A DNA stretch of 64,000 nucleotides from NCBI RefSeq assembly GCF_016653615.1, contig NZ_CP067393.1:1317673-1381672 (forward strand). The letters are read 5' to 3'. Position 1 is the first letter of the stretch. Each line of letters starts with the position of its first letter. Source of the DNA: Entomomonas asaccharolytica (GTDB taxonomy: Bacteria; Pseudomonadota; Gammaproteobacteria; Pseudomonadales; Pseudomonadaceae). The translations under genes and the position numbers were made by a program. This document shows, one piece after another, positions 9,201 to 60,002 of this stretch. The notes under the pieces are model-generated. The model saw nothing but the letters and a program-made list of their open reading frames with translations, was not told where the DNA came from and made no database searches.

Positions 9201-12200
9201 GTCTAATTTTTCTTTACCTTCTTTAAAGACTATCTTAAGTTGTTCATTGTTACTATCTGAAACTGGGTAGTTTTCAAAAACAAATAATGAGTTAAATAGC
9301 CGATTAGCAGATTTTTGTAGTTCTGTAAGATTTACATTACTGTGATTATTTACATTGTTAATATGGGTTTGTAAATTCTTAACAATATTAATTAATGTAT
9401 CTTCAGTATGCTCTAAGGTAATGGGTAGGGTATTAATATAAAGACCTACCGATGTTTCTATGCCATCAACAGGTAGGTTTCTACCTGATACAGTCATACC
9501 TAATGTTGTAGTATCTGTATTACCATAAATACTTAGTTGTTGATGCCAACAGTATTGCATTAATGCATTTAAAGTAAACTCATGGCTTTTGCATAGTTGT
9601 ATAAGTTGTTCACCTTGCTGTTTAGCAATAGTTATAGAAAGTTCTTGCGGATCTTCAATATAACGATGTTCACTTAGGTTTATATGACGCATCTCTGGTT
9701 TAAGAAGACTTTCTAAGTTTTCTTGGTTATCTTGATTGAGATAATTTTTCCAAAACTCATCTGTTTTATGCGTTTGTGCTTGTAAAAATGCTTGTGCGGC
9801 TAAATAACTTTTATCTTCCTGTCTATTAATAGGTTGATTATTGAGTAGTGCCAAATAGTTTTGGTGTACATCATGCAATAGAATAGGAAGACTCCAACCA
9901 TCTAAAATGGCATGATGGTTATTGAAGATACAACGGTAATGTTGTTCGTTGTATTTGATTAAATAGATTCTAAATAACCCCCCTTGAGCGAGGTTGTAAT
10001 TGATTTGACGATCTGTTTCTAATAGATTGCTTGTAGCAATTAATTGTTGATCTTCTGCTTGATCGCTTAAATCAATAAACTGCCAATTAAAGGTATTGGT
10101 TTTATCAACGATTTGGATAAAATCTTCATCCCAAGAGAATCTTAAACGGAGTGTTGGATGTTTTTCCTGGGAAAGTTGCCATGCTTTATGAAGTAAATCA
10201 GCTTGTAATGGATTTTGGTAATCCCAAATCATCTGGATACGATAAGCGTTATCTAATTCACCTTGTACAATGGCATGGTATATAAAGCCTTGCTGTAAAC
10301 TATTAGCAGGGTAGATAGCAGTTATTTCATTATTGTCTTGAATTTTATCTAATAAATTTTTAGAAATGACATGATTAATATCTGATACAGTTAAATAGCT
10401 ACGATTTAACAGTAACAATTCAGTAATTAAACATTCTAATTGTTGAGTAAAGGCGACAGAGAAATATTCTAGTTGTGCACTATTTAAATAACCTTCCACT
10501 GCGAATTGTAATTGTCCATTTAGAATGCCACCATTTAATGCTAACAAATCAGTATTACGATTTTCCGAAGACATTGCGACACCTGAACTTTCATTGCTGA
10601 ATGTCCAGTATGAATGTTGTTCATCACTATCAAATTGACCTAAATAATTAAAGCAGATAGCAGGTAATGGCTGTTCGATATAACCCACTAATACGCCATA
10701 GCCAAAGCCATGATGTGGAATACTTCTTAAGTAATCTTTAATAACAGGTAAATTTTGTACAATTCCTTGCTCTTTGACATCAAGCTTAACAGGATACATA
10801 CAGGTAAACCAACCAACTGTATTATTTATGTCAATATCATTAAATAAATCTTCTCGGCCATGTCCTTCAAGATGGATATAGTGCTGATTAAGATTAAAGA
10901 CAAGTTTTAAAGCACTGGCTAGAGCTGTAAGTAAAATATCATTTATTTCTGTACCATAGACTTTATTTACATCACGTAGCAATACCGTTGTTTGTTCTTT
11001 TGATAGTTGGATTTTGGTTTTATTGAGTGTATCTGTTCGATAAGAAGCTAATTGTTGATTATAATTATCTAACCCTTTAACTGTTTCATGCCAATAAGCT
11101 TGTTCGCTATCAAAGCCTTGTACAGTAAAATTTGGATAGTTTTGTTGCTTATTCACCCATTGACGATAACTTGTACCTTTATCACCTAAAATAGTGCTAG
11201 CATCAATGGCGCTATCTAATGATTTATTTTGTTCAGCAAAGAACTGATAGAGTCTTTGTAGATCATTTTTAATAATTCGCCAACTCACTGCATCAATATT
11301 TAAATGATGTACTGCAATATGAATACGCGCACTATTATCTTCATAACCCTCAAGATAACCTATGTGGAATAGTGGACCTTCTGCAAAATTAAATTGATTT
11401 TGCCATTGAGTTAACTGTTGAGTAATTTGTGTTTCAGTAAGGCCTTTGATATCTATACTATCGAAAGGTAATGCTGCAATTGTTGAATGATAATAGCCCG
11501 TCAAGGAGTCTTGATAAGTAGCTCGTAATATATCGTGATATTCAACCAACTTATTAAGGCTTAATCGTAGTAATTCAATATCAAGTTTTGGTACTTTAAT
11601 TAAAAATGCTTGGTTCCAATGATGATAAGCAGGTAACTTACCTAATTCTCTATTTGCAAAAAACCATTGTTGAATTGGCGCTAAAGGAATATTACCTTCT
11701 AAAACACCCTGTTCAGATTGAATAGTGGCTATTACATTATCTTGGTTTTTAAGTACATGGTCACTTAATGCTTTAACTGTGCGATAGGTAAAAATATCTT
11801 TAATAGATAGATAATAATTCAATGATTGTCTAATGCGATTAGCCAATTGAATACTGCTAATACTATCACCACCTAATTTGAAGAAATCATCTTCTATGCT
11901 AATACTATCAGCTTGTAATCTAAGTACTTCAGCAAATGTGTTGCAGAACAGAAGTTCTGTATCATTGGTTGGTGCTTGATAGTTTTTTGTATTGGTTAAG
12001 ACGGGTTTAGGTAGTGCTCTGAGATTCGCTTTACCATTACTCGTAATAGGGAAGGCGTGCATATGTATAAAAACAGCAGGCAACATATAATCAGGTAAAA
12101 ATTGCTGTAAATAATTTAGTAAGTCATTACTATCAAATGCTTCATCAGCCATGTAATAAGCAGCTAGGTATTTATTGCCTATATTATTATCTAAAGCTAA

Positions 12201-15200
12201 AACAATAGTTTGTTTAATACCAGAATAATTACTTAGCCGCGCTTCAATTTCACCTAATTCAATTCTAAAACCTCGAATTTTAACTTGGAAGTCATTGCGG
12301 CCAATATACTCAATATTACCATCTGCTAAATAACGTACCAGATCGCCTGTTTTATAAAGCCTGCTATTATAATCCTCAGCTTTTTCTTGATCGGTTTGGA
12401 AAGGATTATTAATAAATACTTTATTGGTCATTTCAGGGTTATTTAAATAACCACGCCCAACACCAGCCCCACCAATATATAGTTCACCAATAACACCCAC
12501 TGGCACAGGCTGTAGTCGCTCATCCAATATATAAGTTGTTGTATTGGTCAGTGGTTTACCAATGGTGACGGTTTGCTTAAATGGAGCGGTTGCTTGATTG
12601 GTTAAATAAGCTGTAGCATAAGTGGTTGTTTCTGTTGGGCCATATACATGAACTAAATTAACGTTTGGATAGTATTCTCTAAATTTATTCACATGAATGG
12701 CAGAAGAGGCCTCACCACCAAATAACACGTATTTTAACTGAGCTAAATTAGTTAATTTAGCATCTACTAATGTATTGAAAAAGGCTGTGGTGGAAAAGAA
12801 ATTAGTAATTTTATAGTCAGCAAGTAACTGATTAAATTTCTCCAGATCTAAGAAGTTATCTTTAGTCGCGATTACTAAACTTGCCCCATTGAGTAAACAG
12901 CCAAAAATATCGTAGGTTGAAGCATCGAATTGATAACCAGAGATACTTAATAAATGATCGTCTTGGTTAATCTCAACATAATTAGCATTGATGATTAAAC
13001 GATTAATATTATGGTGTTCAATCAACGTGCCTTTAGGATTACCAGTAGTACCACTGGTATAAATAACATAAGCTAAATCATGTGGCGTAGTATCAATAAT
13101 AGGATGAGCTGTTGGATACTGTGCTAATGTATTTACAAAAGCTGGCTCATCGATACAGGATACAGGGATATCTACAGCTAAAGAAGTCACCTTATCTTGA
13201 TAATGTGATTGAGTAATGATGGCTTTTAGTTTTGCATCTTGTATAATAAAGCCATTACGTTCATTAGGTGCATCAGGATCCATAGGTACATAAGCTGCAC
13301 CTGCTTTTAAGATAGCTAAAATACAAACAACAATTTGTTCTGAGCGATCCAGATATAACCCAACGAGATCATTAGGCTGAAGCTGATAAGTGGTTTGTAA
13401 ATAATGCGCTAATTGATTAGCGCGTTCATTGAGTAGCTCATAAGACAATTGTGTTTGATTAAAGATAACCGCTGTATTATGAGGTGTTTTTTGTAGTTGT
13501 TGTTCAAATAACTGAACCACAGTTTTGTCATTTGCATAGGGCTTTTTAGTATTATTTTTTGAATAAATTAATTCTTCATAGGCGTCCCCGTTTAAATATT
13601 TTAATTTGTTGATAGTTTGTTGTTGTTCACATAAGTTAGCAAATTGTTTAAGAATAGATTGATAAACAGTAATGTAATTTTCTATGGTGTGTTTATCAAA
13701 AAGTGAAGTGGCGTAATTAAATATTCCTGTGATTACCTCATCAGAATCATCTAATGTAGTCGTAATATCAAACTTAGCTACCTGATATTGTGTATCTTCA
13801 ACTTGATAAGGCTCTAATAAGCCATTAATTGCTTTTAATTGTGAGCTACCAAAGGACTGCACACCAAACATTACTTGGAAAATAGGATGTCTTGAGGAGT
13901 CTTTCTCAATTTGAAGAGCATCAACTAATTTTTCAAAAGGTAAATCCTGATGTTTTTGAGCTTCACTAACTAATTGTCCTGTTTGTTTAATAAATTCTAC
14001 TAGTTGTTGCTCAGATTTAATTTGTTGTCTTAAAGCTAAAGTATTTACAAAGAAGCCTATGGTATGCTCAATAGCCTGATAATGTCTACCAGCAATAGGT
14101 GTTCCTAATACAATATCTTTTTGATTACTTAAAGCACCTAATAACAGATAATAACCACTAAGTAATACAGTATATAGACTAACATTCAAATTTGTTGCGA
14201 TGGTTCTTAACTGTTGGCTTAATTGGCTATCCAATTCAAAATAAACATCTTGACCTTTGTAATCAATCTCTAATGGTCGTACATGATCTATTGGTAGATT
14301 TAATGGTTCATAGTCAGTGAGTAGTTGTTGCCAGTATTGCAGCTGTTCATCAAGCACTTTGCCTTGTAAATATTGACGTTGCCATAAAGCAAAATCTTTG
14401 TACTGGGTTTCAACTATAGGTAATTCGAGTTCTTTAGCAAGCTCATTAGCTCCTTTTTGCTGAGCTTCAAGATACTGGTAAGCTTGGATAAATTCATTAA
14501 TAAAGAGATCAAGAGACCAACCATCAAAAGCAATATGATGGATAACAATGGCTAGATAATGTTCATTGGCTAATTGATAACGATTAATAAAGATAGGGTA
14601 TTCTGAATCTAAAGCGTATATATGATGAATATGCTGATATATAGTACTTTGTAAGTCTTGTTGGGAAAGACATAGATTAGAATGAATGGCAAAAGGCATG
14701 GTTTGTAAATCCATTACCTGTTGATAGCCAAGCCCTTCTGAATTTGTTTTAATTAATGAGCGTAATACTTCATGACGTTCCATTACTATAATAATAGCTT
14801 GTTCCACAAGACTAAAATCAACTACAGGGTTTACTTTAAATACTAATGGAATATTATAAGCATCACTGCCACCTTCATAAGAGTCGATAAACCACAACCT
14901 TTCTTGTGCAAAGGATAATAGTTGTTGTTGAGGATTATCAACTGTAGGGGCTACAATAGAAATTTGTGCAGTTTTAGTATTATCAATAAATTCAGCTAAC
15001 GTGCGCACAGTACGATGAGCAAAAATATCAGCTACATGGATTTGTTTAGTAAATAATCTAGCTAACTTACTGGCTAATTTAATCGCTAAAATACTATTAC
15101 CACCTAACCTAAAGAAGTCGTCAGTAACACTAATAGTTTCACTTTCTACACCCAAGAACTCCGCATAGGCTTCAACTATTTGTTGTTCAATAATGCTGCT

Positions 15201-18116
15201 AGGCGCTATGTATTGTGTCTGCGTAATAAAAGAGGGTGCAGGTAAGGCACGGCGATCAACTTTGCCATTTATATTAATAGGGAATGACTGCATGTGTACA
15301 AAGGTAGCGGGCAACATGTAGTCTGGTAAGAATTGTTGTAAATAATTTAGTATCTCATCATTATCGAAAGCTTTATCAGCCACATAATAGGCAGCTAAAT
15401 ATTTATTACCTGCATTATTATCTAGGGCTAGAACAATAGACTGTTTAATAGCAGGATAATTATTTAAACGTGATTCAATTTCACTTAACTCAATTCTAAA
15501 GCCACGAATCTTAACTTGGAAATCATTACGACCAACATATTCAATATTACCATCCGCTAAATAACGAACAAGGTCGCCCGTTTTATATAATTTACTATTA
15601 TAACCTTGAGCTTTTTCATCAGCAGTTTGGAAAGGATTACCGATAAACACTTTATCAGTCATTGCAGGGTTATTTAAGTAACCACGCCCAACACCTGCAC
15701 CACCAATATAAAGTTCGCCAATAGCACCTATAGGAACAGGTTTTATTTGCTCATCTAAAATATAAACAGTTGTATTGGTCAAAGGTTTACCAATAGCAAC
15801 AGTTTGATTAAAAGGTTCTGTTGCCTGATTTGTTAAATAAGCTGTAGCATAAGTGGTTGTTTCTGTTGGACCATAGACATGGACTAAATTAACATTGGGA
15901 TAATATTTTCTAAATTTATTTACATGAATAGCAGATGATGCTTCACCACCAAATAGTACATATTTTAAATGAGCTAAATTAGTTAGTTCAGCATCCACCA
16001 ACGTATTGAAAAAAGCAGTGGTTGAGAAAAAGTTTGTAATTTTATAATCATTAATTAATTGATTAAACTTTTCTAAATCTAAGAAATTATCTTTAGTTGC
16101 GATTACTAAACCTGCACCGTTTAATAAGGAACCAAAAATATCATAAGTAGACGCGTCAAACTGATAACCAGAGATACTCAATAAACGATCAGTTTCATTG
16201 ATCTTAACATAATTAGGATTAATAATTAGACGATTAATATTATGGTGTTCAATCAACGTACCTTTAGGGTTGCCCGTCGTACCACTGGTATAGATAACAT
16301 ACGCTAAATCACATGGTTTAGTTGTATTTGTGGGATTAGTAATTGGGTATTGTGCTAAAGTTGCAATAAAAGCCTGTTGATCAATACAAGATACTGGGAT
16401 ATCTACTACAAGTGAGCTTACCTTAGCTTGATAATGTTGCTGAGTAATAATGGCTTTTAATTTAGCATCTTGCATAATAAAGCCATTACGTTCATTAGGT
16501 GCATCAGGATCCATTGGTACATAAGCGGCCCCTGCTTTTAGTATCGCTAGAATACAGACTACGATTTGTTCAGAGCGATCTAAGTATAATCCTACAAAAT
16601 CATTAGGTTGGATATTATAGGTTGTTTGTAAATGGTGTGCTAGTTGGTTTGCTTGCTGGTTGAGTAGTTCGTAAGATAGCTTTTTTTGATTGAAAATAAC
16701 AGCAATGTTAGCAGGATTTTTTTGAACCTGTTGTTCAAATAGTTGAATCACTGTTTTGTCATTAGCATAGGGTTGTTGTGTGTTATTTCTAGAATAGATT
16801 AACTCTTGATAGCTTTCTTTATCGAGCAAATCAATATCTTTAGTTAGGGTGTGAGTAAGATCATTGACTAGATAGTCTAACAATTGAACAAATAATTTTT
16901 GGTATAGCTTAATAAACTGTTGTACAAGTTGTTTGTCTAAGTGTCTATCATCAAATTTAACACGGTAGTTAATACAATTATTGTATTCTTCCTGTTCAAA
17001 AACTAACTTGTTAGCTAAGTCTATTTGTAATTCATGATTTATTTTTTCGCCATGAATACCATTAAGATGAGTTTGATGGTCACGGAAAAAAGTTTGTACA
17101 AAGGCAACATCTAAAATATTCGGATTATCAACATAAGACATAATCTCATAGACAGGTAAATACTTACCAGCAGATTTTTTAAGGCTTTTATAGTATTCAA
17201 TAACATTATTAAGAACAGTTTGTATAGTAGTGTTATTATCAAAATGATAGTTGATTAACAATGTATTAACATGTGATCCATACTGTAAATCTTTACCTTC
17301 TAACATGGCTACTGGATAAGCAAGAGGAATATTAGTTTGCCTTGTCATTTTATGCAGCAGTAAAGCCATTACTAGCTGACCAAACATGTAAGTAGTAATT
17401 TTATATTTACGACGGAAGGTTTTTAATTGCTTATCAACTTGTTCATCATAACTAAATAGATACTCTGTAATAAAAGGTATAGTTTGCTTTTCAGAGGGTA
17501 TACTGGTTGCTTTTAAAAAAGATAAATCAACACTTTGTACTTCTTTTAAATGTTCTTTCCAGAACGACTCCATTTGCTCTTTTTGGGTAGTAAGTATCTG
17601 TTGGTAGTTATTATAAAGCCTTTGATGCATTTCAGTTTGAACATCAAGGGTAGGAACTTCATAATCAATACCATTATAATTTTTACGAATCTTTTCCCAT
17701 ATTTCTTGGGTACTAATACCATCTACCACAACATGATGAAAAACGAACAATAGCCGATATTGTTCATTAGCTAATTTGATTAGATGTATTCTCGCGAGAA
17801 GATCTTTTTCCAAATTAAAGGGAGAGGTAACGATCTCATAAAGTTCTTCATCAGATAACGGCTGATCATAATAAGTTACAGAATTTTGAACAGGGGGAGA
17901 GGGGATCCAGCAAATACCTTCTGCTTCATTAGATATAGTATGGCGTGTTATAAAATGTTCATTAAATATCTTATTAAAACTAGCAGTAAATTTCTTTACA
18001 TCTACCTCCCCCAAAACTGTATTGTCAATCACAATGTTGTAGTCGCTGCGAAGAGGGTTAGATAACCACTCATAATAGAAAATTGACTGATAAGGGGTCA
18101 GTTTAATGTTTTTCAT
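3231..18116 (-). CDS. Four-module non-ribosomal peptide synthetase with terminal thioesterase
   Basis: Domain order from motifs (approximate residue): C1 (HHVVVDG, 128), A1 (FDASTYD, 653), T1 (LGGNS, 1003), C2 (HHIAFDGW, 1195), A2 (FDASTYD, 1730), T2 (LGGDS, 2080), E (HHLNIDAVSW, 2272), C3 (HHAILDGW, 2735), A3 (FDAHAFE, 3262), T3 (LGGNS, 3600), C4 (HHIAFDGW, 3790), A4 (FDVSVWE, 4329), T4 (LGGNS, 4680), TE (GWSLGG, 4812; distal DCDHYK). C3 begins YPANSLQQGFIYH, the style of condensation domains that accept a D-residue donor, which fits the epimerase before it. Hand-read pocket codes: A1 and A2 both DAYFLGVTYK (bulky aliphatic-like, unsure); A3 DAFFTGVVWK (unassigned); A4 DVWHFSLVDK, the EntF-type serine code. 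Inferred product: a tetrapeptide X-D-X-Y-Ser released by the TE. C1 before the first A domain suggests an acyl or aryl starter or an upstream donor. No tailoring or siderophore genes lie nearby. Confidence 0.95.
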   Translation of the reverse strand: MKNIKLTPYQSIFYYEWLSNPLRSDYNIVIDNTVLGEVDVKKFTASFNKIFNEHFITRHTISNEAEGICWIPSPPVQNSVTYYDQPLSDEELYEIVTSPFNLEKDLLARIHLIKLANEQYRLLFVFHHVVVDGISTQEIWEKIRKNYNGIDYEVPTLDVQTEMHQRLYNNYQQILTTQKEQMESFWKEHLKEVQSVDLSFLKATSIPSEKQTIPFITEYLFSYDEQVDKQLKTFRRKYKITTYMFGQLVMALLLHKMTRQTNIPLAYPVAMLEGKDLQYGSHVNTLLINYHFDNNTTIQTVLNNVIEYYKSLKKSAGKYLPVYEIMSYVDNPNILDVAFVQTFFRDHQTHLNGIHGEKINHELQIDLANKLVFEQEEYNNCINYRVKFDDRHLDKQLVQQFIKLYQKLFVQLLDYLVNDLTHTLTKDIDLLDKESYQELIYSRNNTQQPYANDKTVIQLFEQQVQKNPANIAVIFNQKKLSYELLNQQANQLAHHLQTTYNIQPNDFVGLYLDRSEQIVVCILAILKAGAAYVPMDPDAPNERNGFIMQDAKLKAIITQQHYQAKVSSLVVDIPVSCIDQQAFIATLAQYPITNPTNTTKPCDLAYVIYTSGTTGNPKGTLIEHHNINRLIINPNYVKINETDRLLSISGYQFDASTYDIFGSLLNGAGLVIATKDNFLDLEKFNQLINDYKITNFFSTTAFFNTLVDAELTNLAHLKYVLFGGEASSAIHVNKFRKYYPNVNLVHVYGPTETTTYATAYLTNQATEPFNQTVAIGKPLTNTTVYILDEQIKPVPIGAIGELYIGGAGVGRGYLNNPAMTDKVFIGNPFQTADEKAQGYNSKLYKTGDLVRYLADGNIEYVGRNDFQVKIRGFRIELSEIESRLNNYPAIKQSIVLALDNNAGNKYLAAYYVADKAFDNDEILNYLQQFLPDYMLPATFVHMQSFPININGKVDRRALPAPSFITQTQYIAPSSIIEQQIVEAYAEFLGVESETISVTDDFFRLGGNSILAIKLASKLARLFTKQIHVADIFAHRTVRTLAEFIDNTKTAQISIVAPTVDNPQQQLLSFAQERLWFIDSYEGGSDAYNIPLVFKVNPVVDFSLVEQAIIIVMERHEVLRSLIKTNSEGLGYQQVMDLQTMPFAIHSNLCLSQQDLQSTIYQHIHHIYALDSEYPIFINRYQLANEHYLAIVIHHIAFDGWSLDLFINEFIQAYQYLEAQQKGANELAKELELPIVETQYKDFALWQRQYLQGKVLDEQLQYWQQLLTDYEPLNLPIDHVRPLEIDYKGQDVYFELDSQLSQQLRTIATNLNVSLYTVLLSGYYLLLGALSNQKDIVLGTPIAGRHYQAIEHTIGFFVNTLALRQQIKSEQQLVEFIKQTGQLVSEAQKHQDLPFEKLVDALQIEKDSSRHPIFQVMFGVQSFGSSQLKAINGLLEPYQVEDTQYQVAKFDITTTLDDSDEVITGIFNYATSLFDKHTIENYITVYQSILKQFANLCEQQQTINKLKYLNGDAYEELIYSKNNTKKPYANDKTVVQLFEQQLQKTPHNTAVIFNQTQLSYELLNERANQLAHYLQTTYQLQPNDLVGLYLDRSEQIVVCILAILKAGAAYVPMDPDAPNERNGFIIQDAKLKAIITQSHYQDKVTSLAVDIPVSCIDEPAFVNTLAQYPTAHPIIDTTPHDLAYVIYTSGTTGNPKGTLIEHHNINRLIINANYVEINQDDHLLSISGYQFDASTYDIFGCLLNGASLVIATKDNFLDLEKFNQLLADYKITNFFSTTAFFNTLVDAKLTNLAQLKYVLFGGEASSAIHVNKFREYYPNVNLVHVYGPTETTTYATAYLTNQATAPFKQTVTIGKPLTNTTTYILDERLQPVPVGVIGELYIGGAGVGRGYLNNPEMTNKVFINNPFQTDQEKAEDYNSRLYKTGDLVRYLADGNIEYIGRNDFQVKIRGFRIELGEIEARLSNYSGIKQTIVLALDNNIGNKYLAAYYMADEAFDSNDLLNYLQQFLPDYMLPAVFIHMHAFPITSNGKANLRALPKPVLTNTKNYQAPTNDTELLFCNTFAEVLRLQADSISIEDDFFKLGGDSISSIQLANRIRQSLNYYLSIKDIFTYRTVKALSDHVLKNQDNVIATIQSEQGVLEGNIPLAPIQQWFFANRELGKLPAYHHWNQAFLIKVPKLDIELLRLSLNKLVEYHDILRATYQDSLTGYYHSTIAALPFDSIDIKGLTETQITQQLTQWQNQFNFAEGPLFHIGYLEGYEDNSARIHIAVHHLNIDAVSWRIIKNDLQRLYQFFAEQNKSLDSAIDASTILGDKGTSYRQWVNKQQNYPNFTVQGFDSEQAYWHETVKGLDNYNQQLASYRTDTLNKTKIQLSKEQTTVLLRDVNKVYGTEINDILLTALASALKLVFNLNQHYIHLEGHGREDLFNDIDINNTVGWFTCMYPVKLDVKEQGIVQNLPVIKDYLRSIPHHGFGYGVLVGYIEQPLPAICFNYLGQFDSDEQHSYWTFSNESSGVAMSSENRNTDLLALNGGILNGQLQFAVEGYLNSAQLEYFSVAFTQQLECLITELLLLNRSYLTVSDINHVISKNLLDKIQDNNEITAIYPANSLQQGFIYHAIVQGELDNAYRIQMIWDYQNPLQADLLHKAWQLSQEKHPTLRLRFSWDEDFIQIVDKTNTFNWQFIDLSDQAEDQQLIATSNLLETDRQINYNLAQGGLFRIYLIKYNEQHYRCIFNNHHAILDGWSLPILLHDVHQNYLALLNNQPINRQEDKSYLAAQAFLQAQTHKTDEFWKNYLNQDNQENLESLLKPEMRHINLSEHRYIEDPQELSITIAKQQGEQLIQLCKSHEFTLNALMQYCWHQQLSIYGNTDTTTLGMTVSGRNLPVDGIETSVGLYINTLPITLEHTEDTLINIVKNLQTHINNVNNHSNVNLTELQKSANRLFNSLFVFENYPVSDSNNEQLKIVFKEGKEKLDYPLGIVVYEKAGEINFKIKYAGELFDQQTITRILQGVELTLEQLLNNPNIHVNQLKLLTTQEHTQLIQNQAAQTVPFTQNKLISQLFEEQVQQTPNNIALVYEDVQFSYQQLNDYTNQLASYLRQLLAIKPDDLIGLYLDKSEHMVISILAVLKAGAAYVPMSPQTPVERTQLMIADTQCKAVLTNQHYCGQLNTIAENYSTQIIDIDNPLLINKLVNFDKQNITSQTQANNLAYIIYTSGTTGQPKGVMIEHHTLANLATVQQDILDLARCNLHNKPKNVLWYSSYVFDAHAFEIYNALLNGHCLHVLAETKRLDFTALSSYIKQRNIDFAFIPPALLDKNETLQLPVLTVGGEATSKELVNQYCQQGVKLINVYGPSETTVWATAHPYQKDDINTNIGRPIHNVCTYILDKYLRPVPAGVIGELYIGGAGVGRGYLNNPEMTNKVFIDNPFQTEQEKAQDYNSRLYKTGDLVRYLADGDIEYIGRNDFQVKIRGFRIELGEIEARLNDYPTIKQALVLALDSTTGNKYLAAYYVAEEALTNDELLRYLQQFLPDYMLPAAFVHLTSFPVTINGKIDRHALPKPSLISQEQYIAPTTETEQLLVECYAEFLHIAAETISISDDFFRLGGNSILAIKLASKISKLFAKPIHVADIFAQRSVQALAKFVEQSKGEHACIIAPVVDNPQQQLLSFAQERLWFIDSYENGSNAYNIPLVFKVAPSIDIAIMEQAIVKVIERHEVLRSVIKTNSDGLGYQQILSLSSTPFVVDTFICSSQEDLDQHIYKHIHRVFKLDRELPIAVNHYLLGNDNYISMIIHHIAFDGWSIELLIKELTHYYQYLTALQQGQVEQAEQWLLPAIDIQYKDYALWQRQYLQGKVLDEQLHYWQQQLADYQPLNLPTDYVRPLQIDYSGKDINFQLDTKLSQQLRSLAAELNVSLYSVLLSGYYLLLGAFSNQQDIVIGTPIAGRHYQAIEQTIGLFVNTLALRQQISAEQTLVEFIQHTGQLIIDAQKHQDLPFEKLVDVMQIEKDSSRHPIFQVMFGVQSFGNNLTTDTEQLFLPYQAAGTEYQVAKFDITTMLDDSKEAITGIFNYATRLFDEQTIMHYITVYQCILEQFASLCEKQQTITQLNYLNKDTFAKTIYQWNQTQCDYPKNTTIHALFEEQVQKTPNNIAMVYEDNRLTYQQLNQSANKLAHYLRDNFAIQADDLVALCLDRSQHMLISILAILKAGGAYVPMDPQAPAERISYMLADTKTKVVLTTNTSYEKVKALATTEQVVINLQAPETILEITNYSSDDLTPVAQPNNLAYVIYTSGTTGNPKGVMLEHQGVVNRIVWMHNQYPITEQDHILQKTNYTFDVSVWELFWANWYGACIVFAHPELYKDNLYLAELIEREQVNVLHFVPSMLVAFVETLATQTELQSKVQNLKYLFCSGEALNLYEVKKCHSLIPNCEVHNLYGPTEATVDVLYYDCNNPDITDVLIGKPIANTSAYILNEQLQPVPIGAIGELYVGGDGVARGYLNNASLSAERFIANPFQTAEEKQQHYNSRIYKTGDLVRSLPDGNIQYLGRNDFQVKIRGFRIELGEIEARLTQYSAINHSIVIAYEHSSGSKYLVAYYTSPQEIDSQLLHDYLHKNLPSYMIPSYFIHLTELPITSNGKLNRRALPKPNFTETITYVAPENAIENTLCQVFSSVLKISNTEISMLDNFFKLGGNSILAMLLNNKINEAFKIKLRLVDILTTNTIRELAIKIANTKEQFNPIMLLNSAQDKPQMFMIHPGLGGCEVYNSLANKLNGHHHCYGIDSYNFYHEQKIDDLTLLTQYYLEHIETILNKDEPITLLGWSLGGQIALELAANLEARGIKDIKVYLLDTWLLNEDDLKLNDQPIDLVHIMKELNIPAYLKPKVESMMEIDNKLSVQPLSSKLKKAQVVLFKANKIHGSAELYQRYPLNNIDAYITYPNQLQLVEIDCDHYKILEKEQEIISYITELVS

Positions 18117-48982: not shown

Positions 48983-49010
48983 TTGACAAGTGTTTTTTTA
49001 TAGATATAAA
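48983..49010 (+). promoter_or_regulatory. Sigma-70-like promoter for the leader-controlled gene array
   Basis: TTGACA (48983-48988, consensus -35), 16-bp spacer, TATAAA (49005-49010). Predicted start near 49017. A 17-bp imperfect palindrome, TGTTAGCGTTGCTAACA (49025-49041), related to the ICE TGTTAACA sites, lies just downstream, in an operator position. Confidence 0.7.
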
Positions 49011-49016
49011 TATTAG

Positions 49017-49165
49017 GCATGGATTGTTAGCGTTGCTAACAAAACCTGCCCAGTGAACCATCGATCTTCAAGGTTCAGTACAACGTAGTTGTATGGTCAC
49101 ATAAAGTCGATAAAAGCGCACGGTAGCATCGACGATTACTAAACTGAGTAATGTGTGCTTCTTTT
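49017..49165 (+). ncRNA. Structured 5' leader with mutually exclusive hairpins
   Basis: Successive hairpins: TGTTAGC/GCTAACA; TGAACC (49054) with GGTTCA (49072); TACAAC-gta-GTTGTA (49079-49093); then two competing structures. GTCGAT (49106-49111) can pair with ATCGAC (49128-49133); alternatively AAGCGCAC (49114-49121) pairs with GTGTGCTT (49153-49160), enclosing ATTACT/AGTAAT, and is followed by CTTTTCT. The second looks like an attenuator-type terminator and the first may compete with it. It could be a free small RNA or an attenuation leader for the downstream genes. Confidence 0.5.
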
Positions 49166-49235: not shown

Positions 49236-49319
49236 CCGAATGGGGAAACTTTTTTCCTCATAAAGGAATTCATGTTTCTCCTTTATTTATTTTATTTAAG
49301 TTTTATATTGGAGAGACAA
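49236..49319 (+). promoter_or_regulatory. Repeated two-hairpin leader, copy 1
   Basis: The most diverged copy: hairpin 1 is weak (GGGGAAAC region at 49242 with TTTTCC), but hairpin 2 is clear: GTTTCTCC (49274-49281) pairs with GGAGAGAC around 49310-49317, the ribosome-binding site of the gene at 49320. Confidence 0.6.
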
Positions 49320-49577
49320 ATGGCAGATTTAGTGAATGAAATTAAATTGAAATCAAATATTGTTAAGTTATTGACTAGATCAAGCGATCCTGAGTCAAAA
49401 CAAACAGTATTAAAGTTTCAAGAAATGATTGTAACTGATGTAGTTAATTTGGCTTATAAGGATGTGATTGAAAATAATCACAGAGATCTTGAGCAATTAG
49501 ATACATTAGGAATAAGTAAGCTTTATGAACTTGAAAAAGCTCGCTTACAAAGTGGAAGTTTTGCTATAGCGTGTTAA
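49320..49577 (+). CDS. Small hypothetical protein, first gene of the leader array
   Basis: The 85-aa protein begins MADLVNEIKLKSNIVKLL; the ATG at 49320 is chosen because GGAGAGAC of the repeated leader lies directly upstream. It is predicted all-helical (DVVNLAYKDVIENNHRDLEQLDTL). No family recognised. Its stop codon (TAA at 49575) lies inside TGTTAACA site 10. Confidence 0.65.
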   Translation: MADLVNEIKLKSNIVKLLTRSSDPESKQTVLKFQEMIVTDVVNLAYKDVIENNHRDLEQLDTLGISKLYELEKARLQSGSFAIAC

Positions 49578-49588
49578 CACTGTTAACA
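49572..49588. repeat. TGTTAACA double site 10
   Basis: TGTTAACA-c-TGTTAACA; its first TAA is the stop codon of the preceding gene. It lies about 40 bp before the next repeated leader. Confidence 0.85.
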
Positions 49589-49628
49589 GCAAAATGAACT
49601 AAAAATTTTTTATAAAATTGTTTTTGAA

Positions 49629-49691
49629 CCCAATTGGGGAAATACTTTCCCTTTGGGATTAGTCTTTCTCCAATTTTTTTTGAGAAATATT
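49629..49691 (+). promoter_or_regulatory. Repeated two-hairpin leader, copy 2 (before DUF3577 gene)
   Basis: Hairpin 1: CCCAA (49629) ... GGGAAA-tac-TTTCCC ... TTGGG (to about 49656). Hairpin 2: TTTCTCCA (49665-49672) can pair with TGAGAAA (49681) or, better, with TGGAGAAA at the duplicated start (49719-49726). From memory a DUF3577 RNA motif has been proposed by comparative genomics; this copy may correspond to it. Confidence 0.75.
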
Positions 49692-50300
49692 ATGAGTAAT
49701 CGAACTCTACAAGCTATTTGGAGAAATATCATGACTAATCAAACTCAACAAACTACTCAATACTTCAACGTTCACACTACTGGTCTTGGTTATGTAAACC
49801 GTATTCGTGAAGTAAAACCTGAAAATGGTGGTAAGCCATTTTGGTCTTGTACTGTTGCAGTATTAAGAGGTGCATCTGATAACGTTAAGTATACCTATAT
49901 CGACTGTCGTGTTTCTGGTGAAGAAGCGTTAAGTTTAGTTAAACGCCTTAAAAAGACAGTTGATGAAGCTATCAAAGAGGGTAAGGCTGAACCAAAGCTA
50001 TTAATCGGCTTTACTATTGGCGATATCTATCCTGAATCATTTACTTATGAATCAGGCGATAAAAAAGGTAAAACTGGTGTAAATATCAAAGGTAGACTAC
50101 TTCGTATATCTTCTATCAAAAAAGATGGTGAAACAGTTTATCAAGCACCTAAGAAAGAGGAAGCTGATCCAGAAGTTCCAGTAGATAATATTCCTGCTGA
50201 ACAAATAGAACAAGCTCAACTTCAAAATGATGTTCCAACAACTCCAGCACCTTCTGAGCAACCTGCTCAAGAAGAAGCTGAAGAAATGGCAGCATTTTAA
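49692..50300 (+). CDS. DUF3577/STY4534-family ICE replication protein
   Basis: The 202-aa protein contains the DUF3577 core: TQYFNVHTTGLGYVNRIREV (about 24-43), FWSCTVAVLRGASDNVKYTYIDCRV (in pieces, about 52-76), LLIGFTIGDIYPESF (about 100), NIKGRLLRIS, and an acidic Pro/Glu/Gln-rich tail. It resembles an OB-fold DNA-binding protein. Two starts exist: 49692 and 49731, each with its own ribosome-binding site, created by a 39-bp tandem duplication; the second is the one homologous to the other leaders. A strong terminator follows. Confidence 0.88.
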   Translation: MSNRTLQAIWRNIMTNQTQQTTQYFNVHTTGLGYVNRIREVKPENGGKPFWSCTVAVLRGASDNVKYTYIDCRVSGEEALSLVKRLKKTVDEAIKEGKAEPKLLIGFTIGDIYPESFTYESGDKKGKTGVNIKGRLLRISSIKKDGETVYQAPKKEEADPEVPVDNIPAEQIEQAQLQNDVPTTPAPSEQPAQEEAEEMAAF

Positions 50301-50317
50301 TTAACTATTAATAATCA

Positions 50318-50340
50318 AGGCCTCTTCTGAGGCCTTTTTA
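50318..50340 (+). terminator. Rho-independent terminator after the DUF3577 gene
   Basis: AAGGCCTC-ttct-GAGGCCTT followed by Ts: a perfect 8-bp stem with tetraloop. It implies that the following leader and gene depend on read-through or on their own promoter. Confidence 0.88.
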
Positions 50341-50352
50341 TTATAAATTTAA

Positions 50353-50430
50353 CCCATTGGGGAAATATTCTTTCCCTTATGGAAATAGTGTTTCTCCAGT
50401 ACTTAATTTTTTATTTATTGGAGAATGACC
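50353..50430 (+). promoter_or_regulatory. Repeated two-hairpin leader, copy 3
   Basis: Hairpin 1 has outer arms CCAT/ATGG (instead of CCCAA/TTGGG) around GGGAAA/TTTCCC. Hairpin 2: TTCTCC(A) at about 50391 pairs with (T)GGAGAA at 50419-50425, the ribosome-binding site. Confidence 0.75.
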
Positions 50431-50898
50431 ATGACTGATTTAACAAGAAGAGAAGTACAGCAAGCTTTTAATACCTATATGAGTAAGCGATATGATACTT
50501 GTCCAGATATTAGAGGTTGTAGTTTTCCTTTGCCTAGTAAGAGTAAAGCTTTAGCACCAGGTAGACATATCGTCATTAATACAGGTGTATTTGAGAAGGA
50601 GCAAGGTTTTGTAGAGTTAAGTGAAGATTTTTGCTCACAAATGTCTAAACCTAGTAAGCATTTTGATAGAAAGACAAGAGCTTGGTTTGTAGGTCAATAT
50701 TACATGGGGCAGTATAAAAAGGTTTTTTCTTTTTCAATAAGGTGTTCACCTTATTTCACAGGAGAAGATGCTCCATATGCCGCTGAAGCTCTTGCCAGAA
50801 AATGTAGAAAATTTGGCTACATTGAAGCTTTAAAAAAAGAGGGGTTATATGACGATTTTATTAACAATGTGAACACTGTTATTGATAGTAAAATATAA
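50431..50898 (+). CDS. Hypothetical protein, paralogue family A, member 1
   Basis: The 155-aa protein shares a core with the gene at 52869: LAPGRH-I, then QGFV-LS---C--MS-P, then a Tyr-rich strand region and IRCSPY before a helical end (ARKCRKFGYIEALKKEGLYDDF). It carries about 50 extra N-terminal residues. I choose the ATG at 50431, following GGAGAATGACC of the leader; an ATG six bases earlier overlaps the ribosome-binding site. No known family. The ORF ends just before leader copy 4. Confidence 0.7.
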   Translation: MTDLTRREVQQAFNTYMSKRYDTCPDIRGCSFPLPSKSKALAPGRHIVINTGVFEKEQGFVELSEDFCSQMSKPSKHFDRKTRAWFVGQYYMGQYKKVFSFSIRCSPYFTGEDAPYAAEALARKCRKFGYIEALKKEGLYDDFINNVNTVIDSKI

Positions 50899-50911
50899 CA
50901 CTTACTTTAAT

Positions 50912-50968
50912 CCCAAGGGAAATTTCTTCTCTTGGGAAGGTATTTCCCTGTTATTTTGGAGAAATACC
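50912..50968 (+). promoter_or_regulatory. Repeated two-hairpin leader, copy 4
   Basis: Hairpin 1: CCCAAG-ggAAAtttcttct-CTTGGG. Hairpin 2: GGTATTTC (50939-50946) pairs with GAAATACC (50961-50968), perfect over 8 bp and abutting the ATG. The spacer between arms is the shortest of the set. Confidence 0.8.
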
Positions 50969-51466
50969 ATGTTTTTAAAAATTGTTGTTCAAGAAAGTAG
51001 GGTTAAATCTAAAACTATTGGAGCAAAGGTTAAAACAGATATTGAAGGTGGTATAACTTACGCTCAACATCAAGTTAAATCTATGCTTTCTTATTTAATT
51101 GATAACAAAGTAATACAACCCAAGTTAGTAAAGTTAGTAGCATTTATAGAGGGACCAAAAGTTGTGCCAGGTGTATCCTCATTAATAGAGGCTACTGTTG
51201 TTTCAGGTAAAATTTTAGAAACAGGAGACATCCAATGGATGATACCTCCAGTTACTAAAGAGGCTGAAGATGCTCTATTTAGGAGTATGCAAAAGCTTGA
51301 AAAAGATCCTGATTTAAAAAATACTGATGAAGCTTTGTATTTACAAGGTTTTGATATTTTTTATAAATTTAGTGAACGTGTTGCTGAAGTCTTAAAAAAT
51401 CTTAATCAACCTATGTTGTATTTAGATATTAATAAGGTGGGTAGTGGCACTATTAAGCTCAAGTAA
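50969..51466 (+). CDS. Hypothetical protein, paralogue family B, member 1
   Basis: The 165-aa protein is a paralogue of the gene at 52187. Shared features: a Gln/His-rich helix early (THAQHQVKSML / AINHFQDQF region), KLVKLVAFIEGPKV / KVVSLFTYIGGKPI, then SLIEATVVSGKILETGDIQWM(I/L)P, AEDALF..M..LE.DP, LYLQGF...F.FS, and a C-terminal NQP(M/L)L--DI-K-G. No known family. Start fixed by the leader at 50969. Confidence 0.7.
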   Translation: MFLKIVVQESRVKSKTIGAKVKTDIEGGITYAQHQVKSMLSYLIDNKVIQPKLVKLVAFIEGPKVVPGVSSLIEATVVSGKILETGDIQWMIPPVTKEAEDALFRSMQKLEKDPDLKNTDEALYLQGFDIFYKFSERVAEVLKNLNQPMLYLDINKVGSGTIKLK

Positions 51467-51485
51467 TCATTCATTAAAAAACTTT

Positions 51486-51549
51486 CCTATGGGGAGATAC
51501 TTTCCCTAGGAACAGTATTTCTCCTTATTTTTTTATTTGGAGAAATAAT
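51486..51549 (+). promoter_or_regulatory. Repeated two-hairpin leader, copy 5
   Basis: Hairpin 1 outer arms are CCTA/TAGG, a compensated change from CCCAA/TTGGG, around GGGGA/TTTCCC. Hairpin 2: TATTTCTCC (about 51516-51524) pairs perfectly with GGAGAAATA (51539-51547) next to the ATG. Confidence 0.82.
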
Positions 51550-52086
51550 ATGTCAGTTTTAAACATTTCAAAAAACCAACAACCTATTAAGGTTTGTAAT
51601 GAGGAAACTACAACTCAAAGTTTAGAGGAAAAGCTACGTAAATTATTGGTCTATAAAAGGCTCTGTAGTCGAACAGATAATAGAAGGGCTGAAGCAAAAA
51701 TAAAGCATGATGTAGCTATATTTAAGCAGTTTAATATAGACTCGATAGATATATTTTACTTAGCAATACCTGAGACGTTAACTCAATATCCTAAGCTGTT
51801 TAAACAGTATGGATTATTAACATTTCATAACTATTCAGTGTTGAATGAATTAAATATTTTAGAGATAGACACTGGTTTTGTTATAGGTACAGTAACCTTT
51901 TTTAGAGGGTTTGGAATAAAAGATAGAGTACGATTATTGCGTGAATCTATTGAAAAATTCGATACTTATGATGAAGCAAGAGTGGCTTTAGAAACTACTA
52001 ATTGGACACAATGGGTGCTACTAGATAATTATGAAGAATCAATTATTGATACAAGTAATTATGATTGGTCACTTTTAAGAAAATAG
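51550..52086 (+). CDS. Hypothetical protein, centre of the leader array
   Basis: The 178-aa protein (MSVLNISKNQQPIKV...) has a basic helical N-terminal third (LEEKLRKLLVYKRLCSRTDNRRAEAKIKHD, in pieces) and a mixed C-terminal part. No paralogue in the window and no recognised family. Its neighbours on both sides belong to paralogue families B and A in mirror order. Confidence 0.65.
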   Translation: MSVLNISKNQQPIKVCNEETTTQSLEEKLRKLLVYKRLCSRTDNRRAEAKIKHDVAIFKQFNIDSIDIFYLAIPETLTQYPKLFKQYGLLTFHNYSVLNELNILEIDTGFVIGTVTFFRGFGIKDRVRLLRESIEKFDTYDEARVALETTNWTQWVLLDNYEESIIDTSNYDWSLLRK

Positions 52087-52111
52087 TCTTTTTTTAAATC
52101 AGAATGGCTAA

Positions 52112-52186
52112 CCCAATAGGGAAATACTTTCTCTATTGGGAAAGTGTTTTTCTAGTAATTAATTCGCTAATTATTGGAGAAAAATT
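52112..52186 (+). promoter_or_regulatory. Repeated two-hairpin leader, copy 6
   Basis: Hairpin 1: CCCAATAG-ggaaatacttt(ct)-CTATTGGG, extendable to about 13 bp. Hairpin 2: TTTTTCTAGTAATTA pairs through 15 positions with TAATTATTGGAGAAAAA (52169-52185) with a few wobbles or bulges; the arms changed together relative to other copies. Confidence 0.8.
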
Positions 52187-52771
52187 ATGTCTGTATATTC
52201 AAATAAACCAATGCATATTTGTGCTGAAGCATTTGAGACTATTGATAAGTTTGAAGGTTTTGGTGGAAATGTAATCGCTGATATTGAAAAAGCAATTAAT
52301 CATTTTCAAGATCAGTTCAAAGGTATTTATTTTCCTGTAATAACAGAAAATACCGTTATATTGCGACCAGACTTAAGGTCAAACATGATTAAACCTAAAG
52401 TGGTAAGTTTATTCACTTATATAGGGGGTAAACCTATCTCTGAAGGTGTTATTGAACTACTACGGGTCACGCTTTTATCAGGTGTTGTCTTAGAGAATGG
52501 TAATATTCAGTGGATGTTACCAATCACTGATGGACCTAATAATAATGATCCACGTATAGAAGAAGCTGAAAATGCATTGTATGAAAAGGTTCTTGAATTA
52601 GAACAAAATCCTTTTACAAGAATGAGTGACGAATTTTTGTATTTAAGAGGGTTTGAACCACATTTTCGTTTTAGTGGTGTTGTCAGAAAAGTATTAAATA
52701 AACTAAATCAACCATTATTAGTTTGTGATATTGATAAATCTGGCAACTATACAATCAAGCAAAGTCAATAA
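52187..52771 (+). CDS. Hypothetical protein, paralogue family B, member 2
   Basis: The 194-aa protein shares the family B core described for the gene at 50969 (e.g. LLRVTLLSGVVLENGNIQWMLP, in pieces; LYLRGFEPHFRFSGVVRKVLNKLNQPLL). It has a longer N-terminus (about 25 residues) with CAEAFETIDKFEGFGGN. No known family. The divergence from member 1 is large, so the duplication is not recent. Confidence 0.7.
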   Translation: MSVYSNKPMHICAEAFETIDKFEGFGGNVIADIEKAINHFQDQFKGIYFPVITENTVILRPDLRSNMIKPKVVSLFTYIGGKPISEGVIELLRVTLLSGVVLENGNIQWMLPITDGPNNNDPRIEEAENALYEKVLELEQNPFTRMSDEFLYLRGFEPHFRFSGVVRKVLNKLNQPLLVCDIDKSGNYTIKQSQ

Positions 52772-52789
52772 TACTTAGCTAATCATCAA

Positions 52790-52868
52790 CCCAATGGGGG
52801 AATACTTTCCCCTTGGGCTTGGTGTTTCTCCATTTTTTCATTTTATAAGTTAATTTTGGGGAAATACC
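52790..52868 (+). promoter_or_regulatory. Repeated two-hairpin leader, copy 7
   Basis: Hairpin 1: CCCAA-tg-GGGGAA-tac-TTTCCCC-TTGGG. Hairpin 2: GGTGTTTCTCC (52821-52831) pairs over 11 bp (two G-U) with GGGGAAATACC (52858-52868), ending at the ATG. The ribosome-binding site here is GGGG rather than GGAG, and the partner strand still pairs. Confidence 0.82.
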
Positions 52869-53183
52869 ATGTATGAAATTCCAGCTATAGCCTTAGCTCC
52901 TGGTCGTCATCAAATTGTATCTACACAAGATGAAGAGGATCAAGGATTTGTAGATTTATCTTTAGAGTTATGTAAAGAGATGTCAAATCCTAGACTTTAT
53001 GAACATAAAGAAAAGGGATATTACTTTGCATACTACTATCAGGGTAATAAGATAAACGTTAGGTTCAAGGTGATATGCTCACCTTATATTAAAAAAACAG
53101 ATATTCAGAAATTTCTTGAAGTAGCTAGAAAGTTTGGTTTTGCAACTGCTTCATTAATGTTTATGGAAGGTAATAAACAATGA
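52869..53183 (+). CDS. Hypothetical protein, paralogue family A, member 2
   Basis: The 104-aa protein shares LAPGRHQI, DQGFVDLSLELCKEMSNP and VICSPY with the gene at 50431 but lacks its N-terminal extension and part of the tail. The stop overlaps the ATG of the next gene (ATGA), so the two are translationally coupled and the last leader may control both. Confidence 0.7.
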   Translation: MYEIPAIALAPGRHQIVSTQDEEDQGFVDLSLELCKEMSNPRLYEHKEKGYYFAYYYQGNKINVRFKVICSPYIKKTDIQKFLEVARKFGFATASLMFMEGNKQ

Positions 53184-57939: not shown

Positions 57940-58953
57940 ATGAGAAATAAATTGTTATTAGTTTTACCCTTATTTATGACGAATATAGCAATAGCAGGGA
58001 ACTGGTCTACCATTTTAGATGTTGAGGTATATGGTGACGGAAATGGCAATAACCAGTCGCCATACTCCGTAACAAATGGTTATAACAATACCTTAACAGA
58101 CATAGACCCTGGTGGGGAAACAAGAAGTTCAGAGTCGAGTATGGTCACAGGTTCTGGTAACTATTTTGGTACGGGGGAATGGAATAGTGCCTTTGGTAAT
58201 AATAATACCGTCAGAGGCTCTATTTGGACAAATGGAGCTAATATTTTTGGCAACAGTAATAGTACCAATACTGCACACTCTAACACCATTGGCAATAACA
58301 ACACTGTAACAGGTACAGGCAATATTACTATAGGCAATAATAGTACCGTTTCAGGAACCAATAGTATTTCGTTAGGGAGTAATAATAGTGCCTCCAATGG
58401 TGGTATAGCAATAGGTAGTAATTCAACTGCTAGTCGAACAGATGAAGTTAACTTTGGAGATCGTCAACTCACTGGCATATTAGCAGGGCAAGCGGATACT
58501 GATGGTGTTAATGTCAGTCAAATGAATAGTAAAGCACTGGAAGTATTGGATGATGCAAAACAGTATACCGATGATACCTTTGAAGATGCAAAATCAGTAG
58601 CCAATAGCTATACAGACCAAAAAATCTACGAATTGCTAAATGACAGCACTATCGACTTTTCCAAAGACAATGCTTATACCACAGGGCGTATTAATCAACT
58701 AAATAAAAAACTAGAAAAGATACAAAAAGAAGTCAATGCAGGTATCTCTTCAGCTATAGCTTCAGCCTCAGTACCCCAAAAATTAGGCAAGCAAGTTAGT
58801 TTCGGTATGGGGGTAGGTACCTACAAAAATGAAATGGCTTATGCCTTGGGTGTTAAGTGGGGTATTACCAAAAGAGTTGCATTAGGATCATCTATTGCTT
58901 TCAACACCCAGAAAGATACAAGTTTATCGTTATCACTGGCTTATGGCTTCTAA
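57940..58953 (+). CDS. Trimeric autotransporter adhesin (YadA-like), 1
   Basis: The 337-aa protein has a signal peptide (LLLVLPLFMTNIAIA), a short passenger with repeated GNNNTV/GNSNST head motifs (about 60-165), the neck motif DEVNFGDRQLTGILAGQADTDGVNVSQMN (in pieces, about 168-196), a coiled-coil stalk, and a C-terminal four-strand YadA anchor ending LSLSLAYGF with terminal Phe. It is predicted to be displayed on the cell surface as a trimer. It interrupts the usual PFL_4693-PFL_4695 adjacency of PFGI-1-class ICEs. Confidence 0.92.
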   Translation: MRNKLLLVLPLFMTNIAIAGNWSTILDVEVYGDGNGNNQSPYSVTNGYNNTLTDIDPGGETRSSESSMVTGSGNYFGTGEWNSAFGNNNTVRGSIWTNGANIFGNSNSTNTAHSNTIGNNNTVTGTGNITIGNNSTVSGTNSISLGSNNSASNGGIAIGSNSTASRTDEVNFGDRQLTGILAGQADTDGVNVSQMNSKALEVLDDAKQYTDDTFEDAKSVANSYTDQKIYELLNDSTIDFSKDNAYTTGRINQLNKKLEKIQKEVNAGISSAIASASVPQKLGKQVSFGMGVGTYKNEMAYALGVKWGITKRVALGSSIAFNTQKDTSLSLSLAYGF

Positions 58954-59015
58954 AGCGTAAAGCCAATGGCAATTATTTATTAGATTTACAACGTTAGAGT
59001 GAAATAAGGTGTTTT

Positions 59016-60002
59016 ATGAAAAATGTTAAAAAGAAAGGTTTATTTATTATTAGTGTATTAGCTTTAACAATTGCTAATACTCATGCTAGAACAGTTAATG
59101 TGGTTATGCCAGATAATGTGCTACATGGTGATGGCAATGTCATCACTAATGCAGATAAAAGTGTCAATATTGGGTGGGGTGATCGCATTACAGATGTAAC
59201 CAATACTAACAGCATTGGTTCAAATAATACGATCAATACAGCGACTGATAGTAATGTTAATGGGATTGGAAATAATGTAGAAAATGCCACTGGCACCTCG
59301 GCAATGGGCAATAGCAATACAATTAAAGATACAGAAAATAGCCAAGTTATTGGCAACAACAATACTGTTTCAGGTTCAAACAATATTGCTATCGGTAACA
59401 ACAATAATGTATCAGGCGAAAATAGCATGGCCATTGGAGGTGGTACTGCTAGTAATGGGGGTATTGCCATTGGCAGTGGGTCAACAGCCAATCGAGAAGA
59501 TGAAGTCAACTTTGGAGATCGTCAACTTACTGGTATCAAAGCAGGTGTGGCAGATACTGATGCAGTAAATGTTGGTCAGCTTAATAGTAAAGCGAGTGAA
59601 ACACTTCAAAATGCAAATAACTACACTGATAGCAGAGTACCTACTATTATCAACGAAGCTAATCAATATACTGATTACCAATACAATCAGGCAATTGATC
59701 AACTTTTTCAGAAAAATCGTGGCTATATCGATAGTCAGATAAATCGCTTAGATAAAAAAATTGATAACTATCGAAATGATGCTTTTGCAGGGGTGGCAGG
59801 TGCGTTAGCTATTGCTTCTATTCCGAAAAAGGAAGGCTATCAAACCTCTTATGGCGTAGGTGTTGCTAACTTTCGTAATCAACAAGCCATAGCAGCTGGC
59901 ATTGAACACAACACCAGTACTAGAACTGTCATGAAATTTAACTTCTCCTCGGATACTAAAGGTGGAATCGGTCTAGGCGCAGGTTTTGCCATAGGGCATT
60001 AA
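59016..60002 (+). CDS. Trimeric autotransporter adhesin (YadA-like), 2
   Basis: The 328-aa paralogue of the previous gene has the same plan: signal peptide (LFIISVLALTIANTHA), head repeats (IGSNNTI, IGNNNTV, IGNNNNV), a near-identical neck (DEVNFGDRQLTGIKAGVADTDAVNVGQLN, in pieces), stalk, and YadA anchor ending GAGFAIGH. The terminal His instead of an aromatic residue is unusual for outer-membrane beta-barrels and might lower assembly efficiency. The two may form homo- or heterotrimers. Confidence 0.92.
   Translation: MKNVKKKGLFIISVLALTIANTHARTVNVVMPDNVLHGDGNVITNADKSVNIGWGDRITDVTNTNSIGSNNTINTATDSNVNGIGNNVENATGTSAMGNSNTIKDTENSQVIGNNNTVSGSNNIAIGNNNNVSGENSMAIGGGTASNGGIAIGSGSTANREDEVNFGDRQLTGIKAGVADTDAVNVGQLNSKASETLQNANNYTDSRVPTIINEANQYTDYQYNQAIDQLFQKNRGYIDSQINRLDKKIDNYRNDAFAGVAGALAIASIPKKEGYQTSYGVGVANFRNQQAIAAGIEHNTSTRTVMKFNFSSDTKGGIGLGAGFAIGH

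Follow-up and report, generated by a model that had tools for sequence, protein, structure and literature searches.

Seven consecutive genes of an integrative and conjugative element (ICE) of Entomomonas asaccharolytica are each preceded by a structured leader that can take two competing folds, one of which hides the Shine-Dalgarno (SD) sequence while the other leaves it free. The leaders lie in a 64,000-nt stretch of contig NZ_CP067393.1 (positions 1,317,673 to 1,381,672), called the window below, and window coordinates count from its first letter. Computation reveals the two competing folds, selection on them and their link to establishment-type genes. On the basis of compensatory changes and folding models, we regard the leader as very probably a bistable translational leader. 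It is also fairly likely that the seven are copies of a family of such SD-controlling leaders, carried by ICEs and related conjugative plasmids and working as modelled below.

Two small hairpins and closure of the Shine-Dalgarno sequence

Each leader has four strands in the order A-B-B'-A', in which A:B forms hairpin 1 and B':A' forms hairpin 2. An earlier examination of the DNA without database searches (the sequence-only reading) had described seven consecutive leaders of this two-hairpin design, and all seven are present in the window at the positions where it had placed them, with the arms that it quoted. A covariance model built from these seven (R1) scores them at 59-85 bits (E 4e-11 to 5e-17); the next-best matches in the window reach at most 23 bits and are mostly antisense echoes of the palindromes. 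The hairpin 1 string GGGGAAATACTTTCCCC has five exact or near matches, against 0.08 expected.

The paired changes among the seven leaders, which the sequence-only reading took as direct evidence of selected structure, do not provide it. In a MAFFT alignment of the seven alone, 81.1% of cells pair versus 81.4% in shuffles, and double-change pairs number 4 versus 3.8, so that covariation is no better than in shuffled alignments. Covariation in a larger alignment, on which the same reading had staked its structure beforehand, is present. Among 51 copies, changes on both sides affect 22 of the 23 pairs of hairpins 1 and 2, with a covariation score of 0.298 versus 0.166, and on all five measures the observed value exceeds that of every one of 500 shuffles; slid controls of this alignment give 4-9 double-change pairs. 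With the wider set of copies, the idea of a selected structure reused across the array is borne out.

The proposal that hairpin 2 hides the SD also holds, since its helix covaries over the 51 copies and the SD is paired to B' in the minimum free energy structures of 68 of 76 whole leaders, as well as in 30 of the 32 copies of an independent third set. The SD strand is thus part of a helix that covaries and lies immediately 5' of the start codon, as befits an SD-sequestering translational leader. Conservation is limited to the helices, the SD and the start; loops and linkers vary freely. The outer CCC/GGG of hairpin 1 is almost invariant across copies, and paired sequences otherwise differ widely, even inside one genome. 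No conserved unpaired core of the kind that forms the aptamer of a metabolite riboswitch is found in the aligned copies.

A second, mutually exclusive fold

In every copy, strand A is similar to A', the SD strand (examples: GGGGAAATAC and GGAGAAATACC), and the anti-SD strand B' can therefore take either of them as its partner. Pairing of A with B' produces a long hairpin (A-loop-B against outer strand-linker-B') that excludes both small hairpins and leaves the SD free. The two-hairpin description was thus correct for hairpins 1 and 2 and incomplete as an account of the leader, which has two mutually exclusive folds.

A and B' match in a copy-specific manner. The mean energy of own A:B' duplexes is -16.3 kcal/mol; with B' supplied by a different copy it is -11.5 kcal/mol (z -11.6). 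The specificity persists when partners are permuted inside one genome only (z -7.9). A held-out set of 53 distant copies gives z -11.2, or z -9.9 inside G+C classes. The energy of the entire long hairpin is -19.6 kcal/mol for own strands versus -13.7 kcal/mol for permuted ones (z -17.6), and its distal half alone gives z -6.2. Of the 51 copies, 40 retain a G-U wobble between A and B'. A second, SD-freeing helix is accordingly kept by compensatory change, which is the property expected of a bistable leader.

The nascent segment, defined as the leader up to B' (before the SD is transcribed), was folded separately from the whole leader. The long hairpin is the best fold of this segment in 65 of 76 copies, and 57 of the 76 combine it with SD closure at full length. 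All seven window leaders fold to the long hairpin in their nascent part; in leader 1 the SD is closed at full length, and in leader 6 the alternative hairpin runs to 17 pairs without interruption. When the 3' part was exchanged inside the same G+C class, 27% of the resulting chimeras (standard deviation 4%) form the long hairpin, versus 86% of own nascent segments; in the third, independent set the corresponding values are 25% and 91%.

These controls bear on a simpler account, in which the leaders are plain SD-masking hairpins that lower translation and the A:B' match is a by-product of purine-rich A and A' strands. Runs resembling GGGGA/GGAGA do occur in both strands, and the closed fold is dominant at equilibrium. 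However, the A:B' match remains copy-specific when the comparison is restricted to a single genome or G+C class, and it reaches into the hairpin 1 loop, B and the linker, the long hairpin is lost in chimeras, and copies with weak B':A' still have strong A:B' (e.g., L052:9099 and L050:9971). We therefore consider plain masking improbable. An RNA thermometer, to which an SD within a hairpin with an A+T-rich loop might point, is scarcely credible: the helices have 10-13 pairs and are G+C-rich in many species, and a second competing fold would be superfluous to it.

Two leaders of helicase genes (L050:5964-6043 and L052:9099-9176) have strong A:B' and weak B':A' pairing. Their SD may stay unclosed, perhaps leaving these leaders constitutively open.

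Selection on the mRNA strand and probable placement in operons

On the mRNA strand, the inner helix of hairpin 1, hairpin 2 and the alternative helix all retain G-U cells better than A-C cells (observed/expected 0.81-0.88 versus 0.45-0.69); the alternative helix alone has 105 G-U versus 9 A-C cells (0.88 versus 0.45). Within 40 nt 5' of the copies there is no promoter-like conservation, no -10/-35 pair is conserved near them, and a promoter scan found sigma-70-like sites in the region to be no commoner than in shuffles. The sole upstream conservation is a G-poor stretch, about 10 nt long, ahead of hairpin 1. The distance from the upstream stop codon ranges from 2 to several hundred nt; more than 50% of copies start at most about 50 nt past the stop codon of the upstream reading frame, and several successive copies lie less than 20 nt from upstream stop codons. 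Taken together, G-U retention, the lack of upstream promoter conservation and the nearness to upstream stops favour control of translation within operons over a single-stranded DNA promoter or a DNA palindrome kept by repair.

An element that acts as DNA, either a palindrome maintained by template switching or gene conversion or a Frpo-type single-stranded promoter, with -35/-10 hexamers inside the hairpin, on the transferred strand, would fit the perfect inverted repeats and the location of the leaders on conjugative elements, before establishment genes known from plasmid leading regions (PMC11541004). It would not account for G-U tolerance and conserved wobble on the mRNA strand or for leaders registered on the SD and start codon, and no -10/-35 elements are conserved near copies that stand several in a row less than 20 nt from upstream stops. 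Such an element is very unlikely.

Translation of an upstream frame could also govern the folds, if a ribosome acting as in erm leaders, or ribosomes ending the upstream gene, opened hairpin 1 and shifted the balance. The four-strand logic does resemble the erm type, and many leaders start 2-40 nt past a stop codon. The distance to that stop nonetheless varies widely, a terminator-like stem precedes leader 3, and the region before hairpin 1, which was not searched systematically, showed no conserved short frame. We judge attenuation of this type unlikely.

Distribution, mobile elements and associated genes

The seven-gene set of the sequence-only reading is real and does not mark the limit of the array's family. 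In the same genome (3.24 Mb, single contig), R1 finds at least eight more copies about 30-45 kb downstream of the window array and beyond the window itself, on the same strand and before other ICE genes. R1 also finds copies in 15 of 145 related genomes. Of 369 gammaproteobacterial genomes searched with a refined model (R2, with genome matches counted at E ≤ 0.001), 34 carry the leader; one genome can hold as many as nine copies, besides the window's own. Within the phylum, matches are mostly confined to the same class, and similar DNA was not found in phages. One genome has two inverted copies of one element (G115:C1:2233436-2249915 and 4262995-4279474) whose leader arrays have identical spacing.

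The window holds an ICE of ICEHin1056/SPI-7 type with ParA, DnaB, SSB, TopB, DUF3577 and TraD, and TraC, TraU and TraG are encoded further on. A second array in this genome lies 5' of a MOBH relaxase gene (at 1422754); it spans genome positions 1398751-1412084 (L049, L050), and its leaders precede a series of small genes, among them DUF3275, an SNF2-type helicase gene and several paralogues with products of about 230 amino acids (aa).

In the annotated record of ICEHin1056, seven leaders each end exactly at an annotated start codon. The genes behind them encode STY4534/DUF3577, DUF3560, RadC (radC), three hypothetical proteins and an ArdC-like metallopeptidase; the tra genes, parA, dnaB, ssb and topB are not among the leader-bearing genes. 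In other elements the leaders precede genes for DUF3577, RadC, ArdC, ArdA, SSB, RecT, Eco57I/DUF6094 methyltransferases, an SNF2-type helicase, DUF3275 and DUF6573. DUF3577 is the commonest (18 of the collected copies). Genes of this establishment and anti-defence type occupy the leading regions of plasmids (PMC11541004), and by analogy they may have a like position in these ICEs.

The only Rfam family in the window is the radC RNA (RF01754), which none of the seven leaders matches. Among relatives, a radC RNA is followed in many cases by a leader about 10-50 nt on, including three of three in a Stutzerimonas element. The leader is often the 3' companion of a radC RNA and also stands without one. 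The window genome has a second radC RNA at 415812-415958 (66 bits), with no leader match listed at its locus (L115).

A search of the window leaders with Rfam 15, up to E = 10, gave no plausible family, the best score being 27.4 bits for manA-II against a cut-off of 100; this match, STnc370 and other weak matches on the leaders fall far below their cut-offs and were rejected. Likewise, in ten related loci searched up to E = 1, including DUF3577 leaders of other species, no Rfam 15 family fell on the leader.

Proposed working of the leader

What follows on the sequence of events, on the direction in which control acts and on any biological trigger is inference. Before the SD strand is made, the long hairpin would be favoured; the SD would then emerge free, and a fresh transcript would be translatable. 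Rearrangement to hairpins 1 and 2 would shut translation, limiting each transcript to a brief pulse, and a factor that stabilised either fold could tune that pulse. As each cistron has its own leader copy, the whole gene set could be gated together at translation. The nascent-open, mature-closed timing, which derives from modelled folds, is plausible, and we hold it somewhat short of probable. In its favour is the findpath barrier separating the long hairpin from the closed fold, with a median of 11.9 kcal/mol, which by a common rule of thumb would correspond to seconds or longer.

Several points weigh against this working. About 10-15% of copies have no clear long hairpin, and in the 65-nt piece of leader 2 the long hairpin is still the best fold at full length. 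Most copies have the closed fold as their ground state, and opening therefore needs kinetics or some factor. All folding energies were modelled for 37 °C, and findpath gives barriers only roughly. Finally, leader copies within one element are related, so that shuffles overstate their independence; the within-genome, held-out and chimera controls answer this in part.

The main rival is a shared trans-acting factor, an RNA-binding protein or small RNA of the element or the host, that picks the fold and switches all leaders of an element, the genes being off without it. Many dispersed copies of one architecture, a closed ground state and the near-invariant outer CCC/GGG of hairpin 1 all suit such a factor, and the conserved radC RNA 5' of some copies could be a sensor. 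However, the absence of conserved unpaired bases in loops and linkers, together with the divergence of the paired sequences, leaves little for a sequence-specific binder, and most window copies have no radC RNA. We regard a shared factor as possible and not as the expected outcome; a kinetic switch made of RNA alone fits the observations as well.

A bolder extension of the kinetic switch, which we offer with considerable doubt, is an element-wide post-transcriptional regulon in gammaproteobacterial conjugative elements, with a self-closing leader that pulses translation before each establishment or anti-defence gene. No dedicated protein would be needed, and the regulon would therefore work at once in a recipient that lacks the element's regulators. 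If the switch itself is borne out, genes needed on entry (anti-restriction, SSB, recombination and replication factors) would be under one repeated translational RNA switch. The leader would then offer a handle on the timing of entry genes and on the roles of the many leader-borne DUF genes, and would serve as a marker for further members of the gene set, for example in ICEHin1056. The competing folds allow precise, testable mutants, and the leader provides a setting for the radC RNA, a motif of unsettled function since 2010.

Features of the window

Coordinates of the leaders, their strands and adjacent elements are collected in Table 1. The ambiguity between starts at 49692 and 49731 reflects the tandem repetition of some 39 bp that include the SD and start codon, and the DUF3577 protein begins at 49731. 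The duplicated units, TTGAGAAATATTATGAGTAATCGAACT... and TTGGAGAAATATCATGACTAATCAAACT... (window 49680-49740), provide two SD-start units for this gene.

Table 1. Leaders and associated features of the window, with covariance model scores where available.
Feature	Position	Strand	Score and remarks
radC RNA (Rfam RF01754)	49008..49156	+	51.1 bits, gathering 40; 79 nt 5' of leader 1
Leader 1 (hairpin 1, hairpin 2, SD) of gene 49320-49577 (85 aa, without Pfam match)	49236..49319	+	61.8 bits
Leader 2 of DUF3577 / STY4534-family gene (start 49731, or 49692)	49629..49691	+	68.0 bits; Pfam DUF3577 2.4e-47
Stem resembling an intrinsic terminator, 3' of gene 2 and 5' of leader 3	50317..50336	+	
Leader 3 of gene 50431-50898	50352..50430	+	75.1 bits
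Leader 4 of gene 50969-51466	50911..50968	+	59.0 bits
Leader 5 of gene 51550-52086	51484..51549	+	73.5 bits
Leader 6 of gene 52187-52771	52112..52186	+	84.6 bits
Leader 7 of gene 52869-53183	52790..52868	+	83.8 bits
Strand A example (TGGGGGAATAC), hairpin 1 5' strand and loop, can pair with B'	52795..52805	+	leader 7
Strand B' example (GGTGTTTCTCC), anti-SD, partner either A or A'	52821..52831	+	leader 7
Strand A' example (GGGGAAATACC), SD strand reaching the start codon	52858..52868	+	leader 7

Elsewhere in the window, two adjacent genes with trimeric-autotransporter-like repeats (IGNNNTVSG, DAVNVGQL) are found among the conjugation genes (57940-60002), and next to the element lie export genes and an exceptionally long gene for a non-ribosomal peptide synthetase of 4961 aa (3231-18116).

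Comparison with known systems

A DUF3577 RNA motif, reportedly described by Weinberg and colleagues in 2017, may cover part of the leader family. By that name it precedes DUF3577 genes, as the leader often does, and no such family was matched in Rfam 15. To our knowledge, neither reuse in an array nor a bistable fold has come out of work on that motif. In the literature on the radC and DUF3577 motifs, ICE leaders and ICEHin1056 regulation, we found nothing on the leader described here.

Like the leader, the radC RNA motif (RF01754; Weinberg et al., 2010, PMC2864571) is a proteobacterial cis-regulatory candidate of mobile elements, and it lies about 10-80 nt 5' of many leaders. Its 149-position model ends before the leader, however, which has its own structure and SD pairing, and the radC RNA is absent from six of the seven window leaders and from many others.

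CUP elements are promoter/repressor units (ArdK, ArdR). Those of the IncN leading region (R46/pKM101) resemble the leader as repeated upstream regulatory elements before ardA, ardB and neighbouring genes. They were rejected as the same thing, since R2 gives no match in R46.

In mRNAs of the hok/aapA type, a nascent hairpin keeps translation off. The leader differs in that its nascent fold leaves the SD free and that no toxin-antitoxin context is present. What the leader shares with these toxin mRNAs, which have metastable nascent hairpins (e.g., PMC6733600), is that the nascent RNA folds differently from the full-length RNA and that this governs access to the SD. Attenuators of the erm type and riboswitch expression platforms likewise have four strands whose mutually exclusive pairings decide SD access; unlike them, the leader shows no aptamer or leader peptide and stands singly before each gene, in arrays that can reach about nine copies or more. 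Bistable control of the SD is thus a known principle, represented by erm attenuators, riboswitch platforms and hok-type mRNAs. What appears to be new is a switch outside Rfam 15 that is repeated before each gene of an establishment set, class-wide on conjugative elements.

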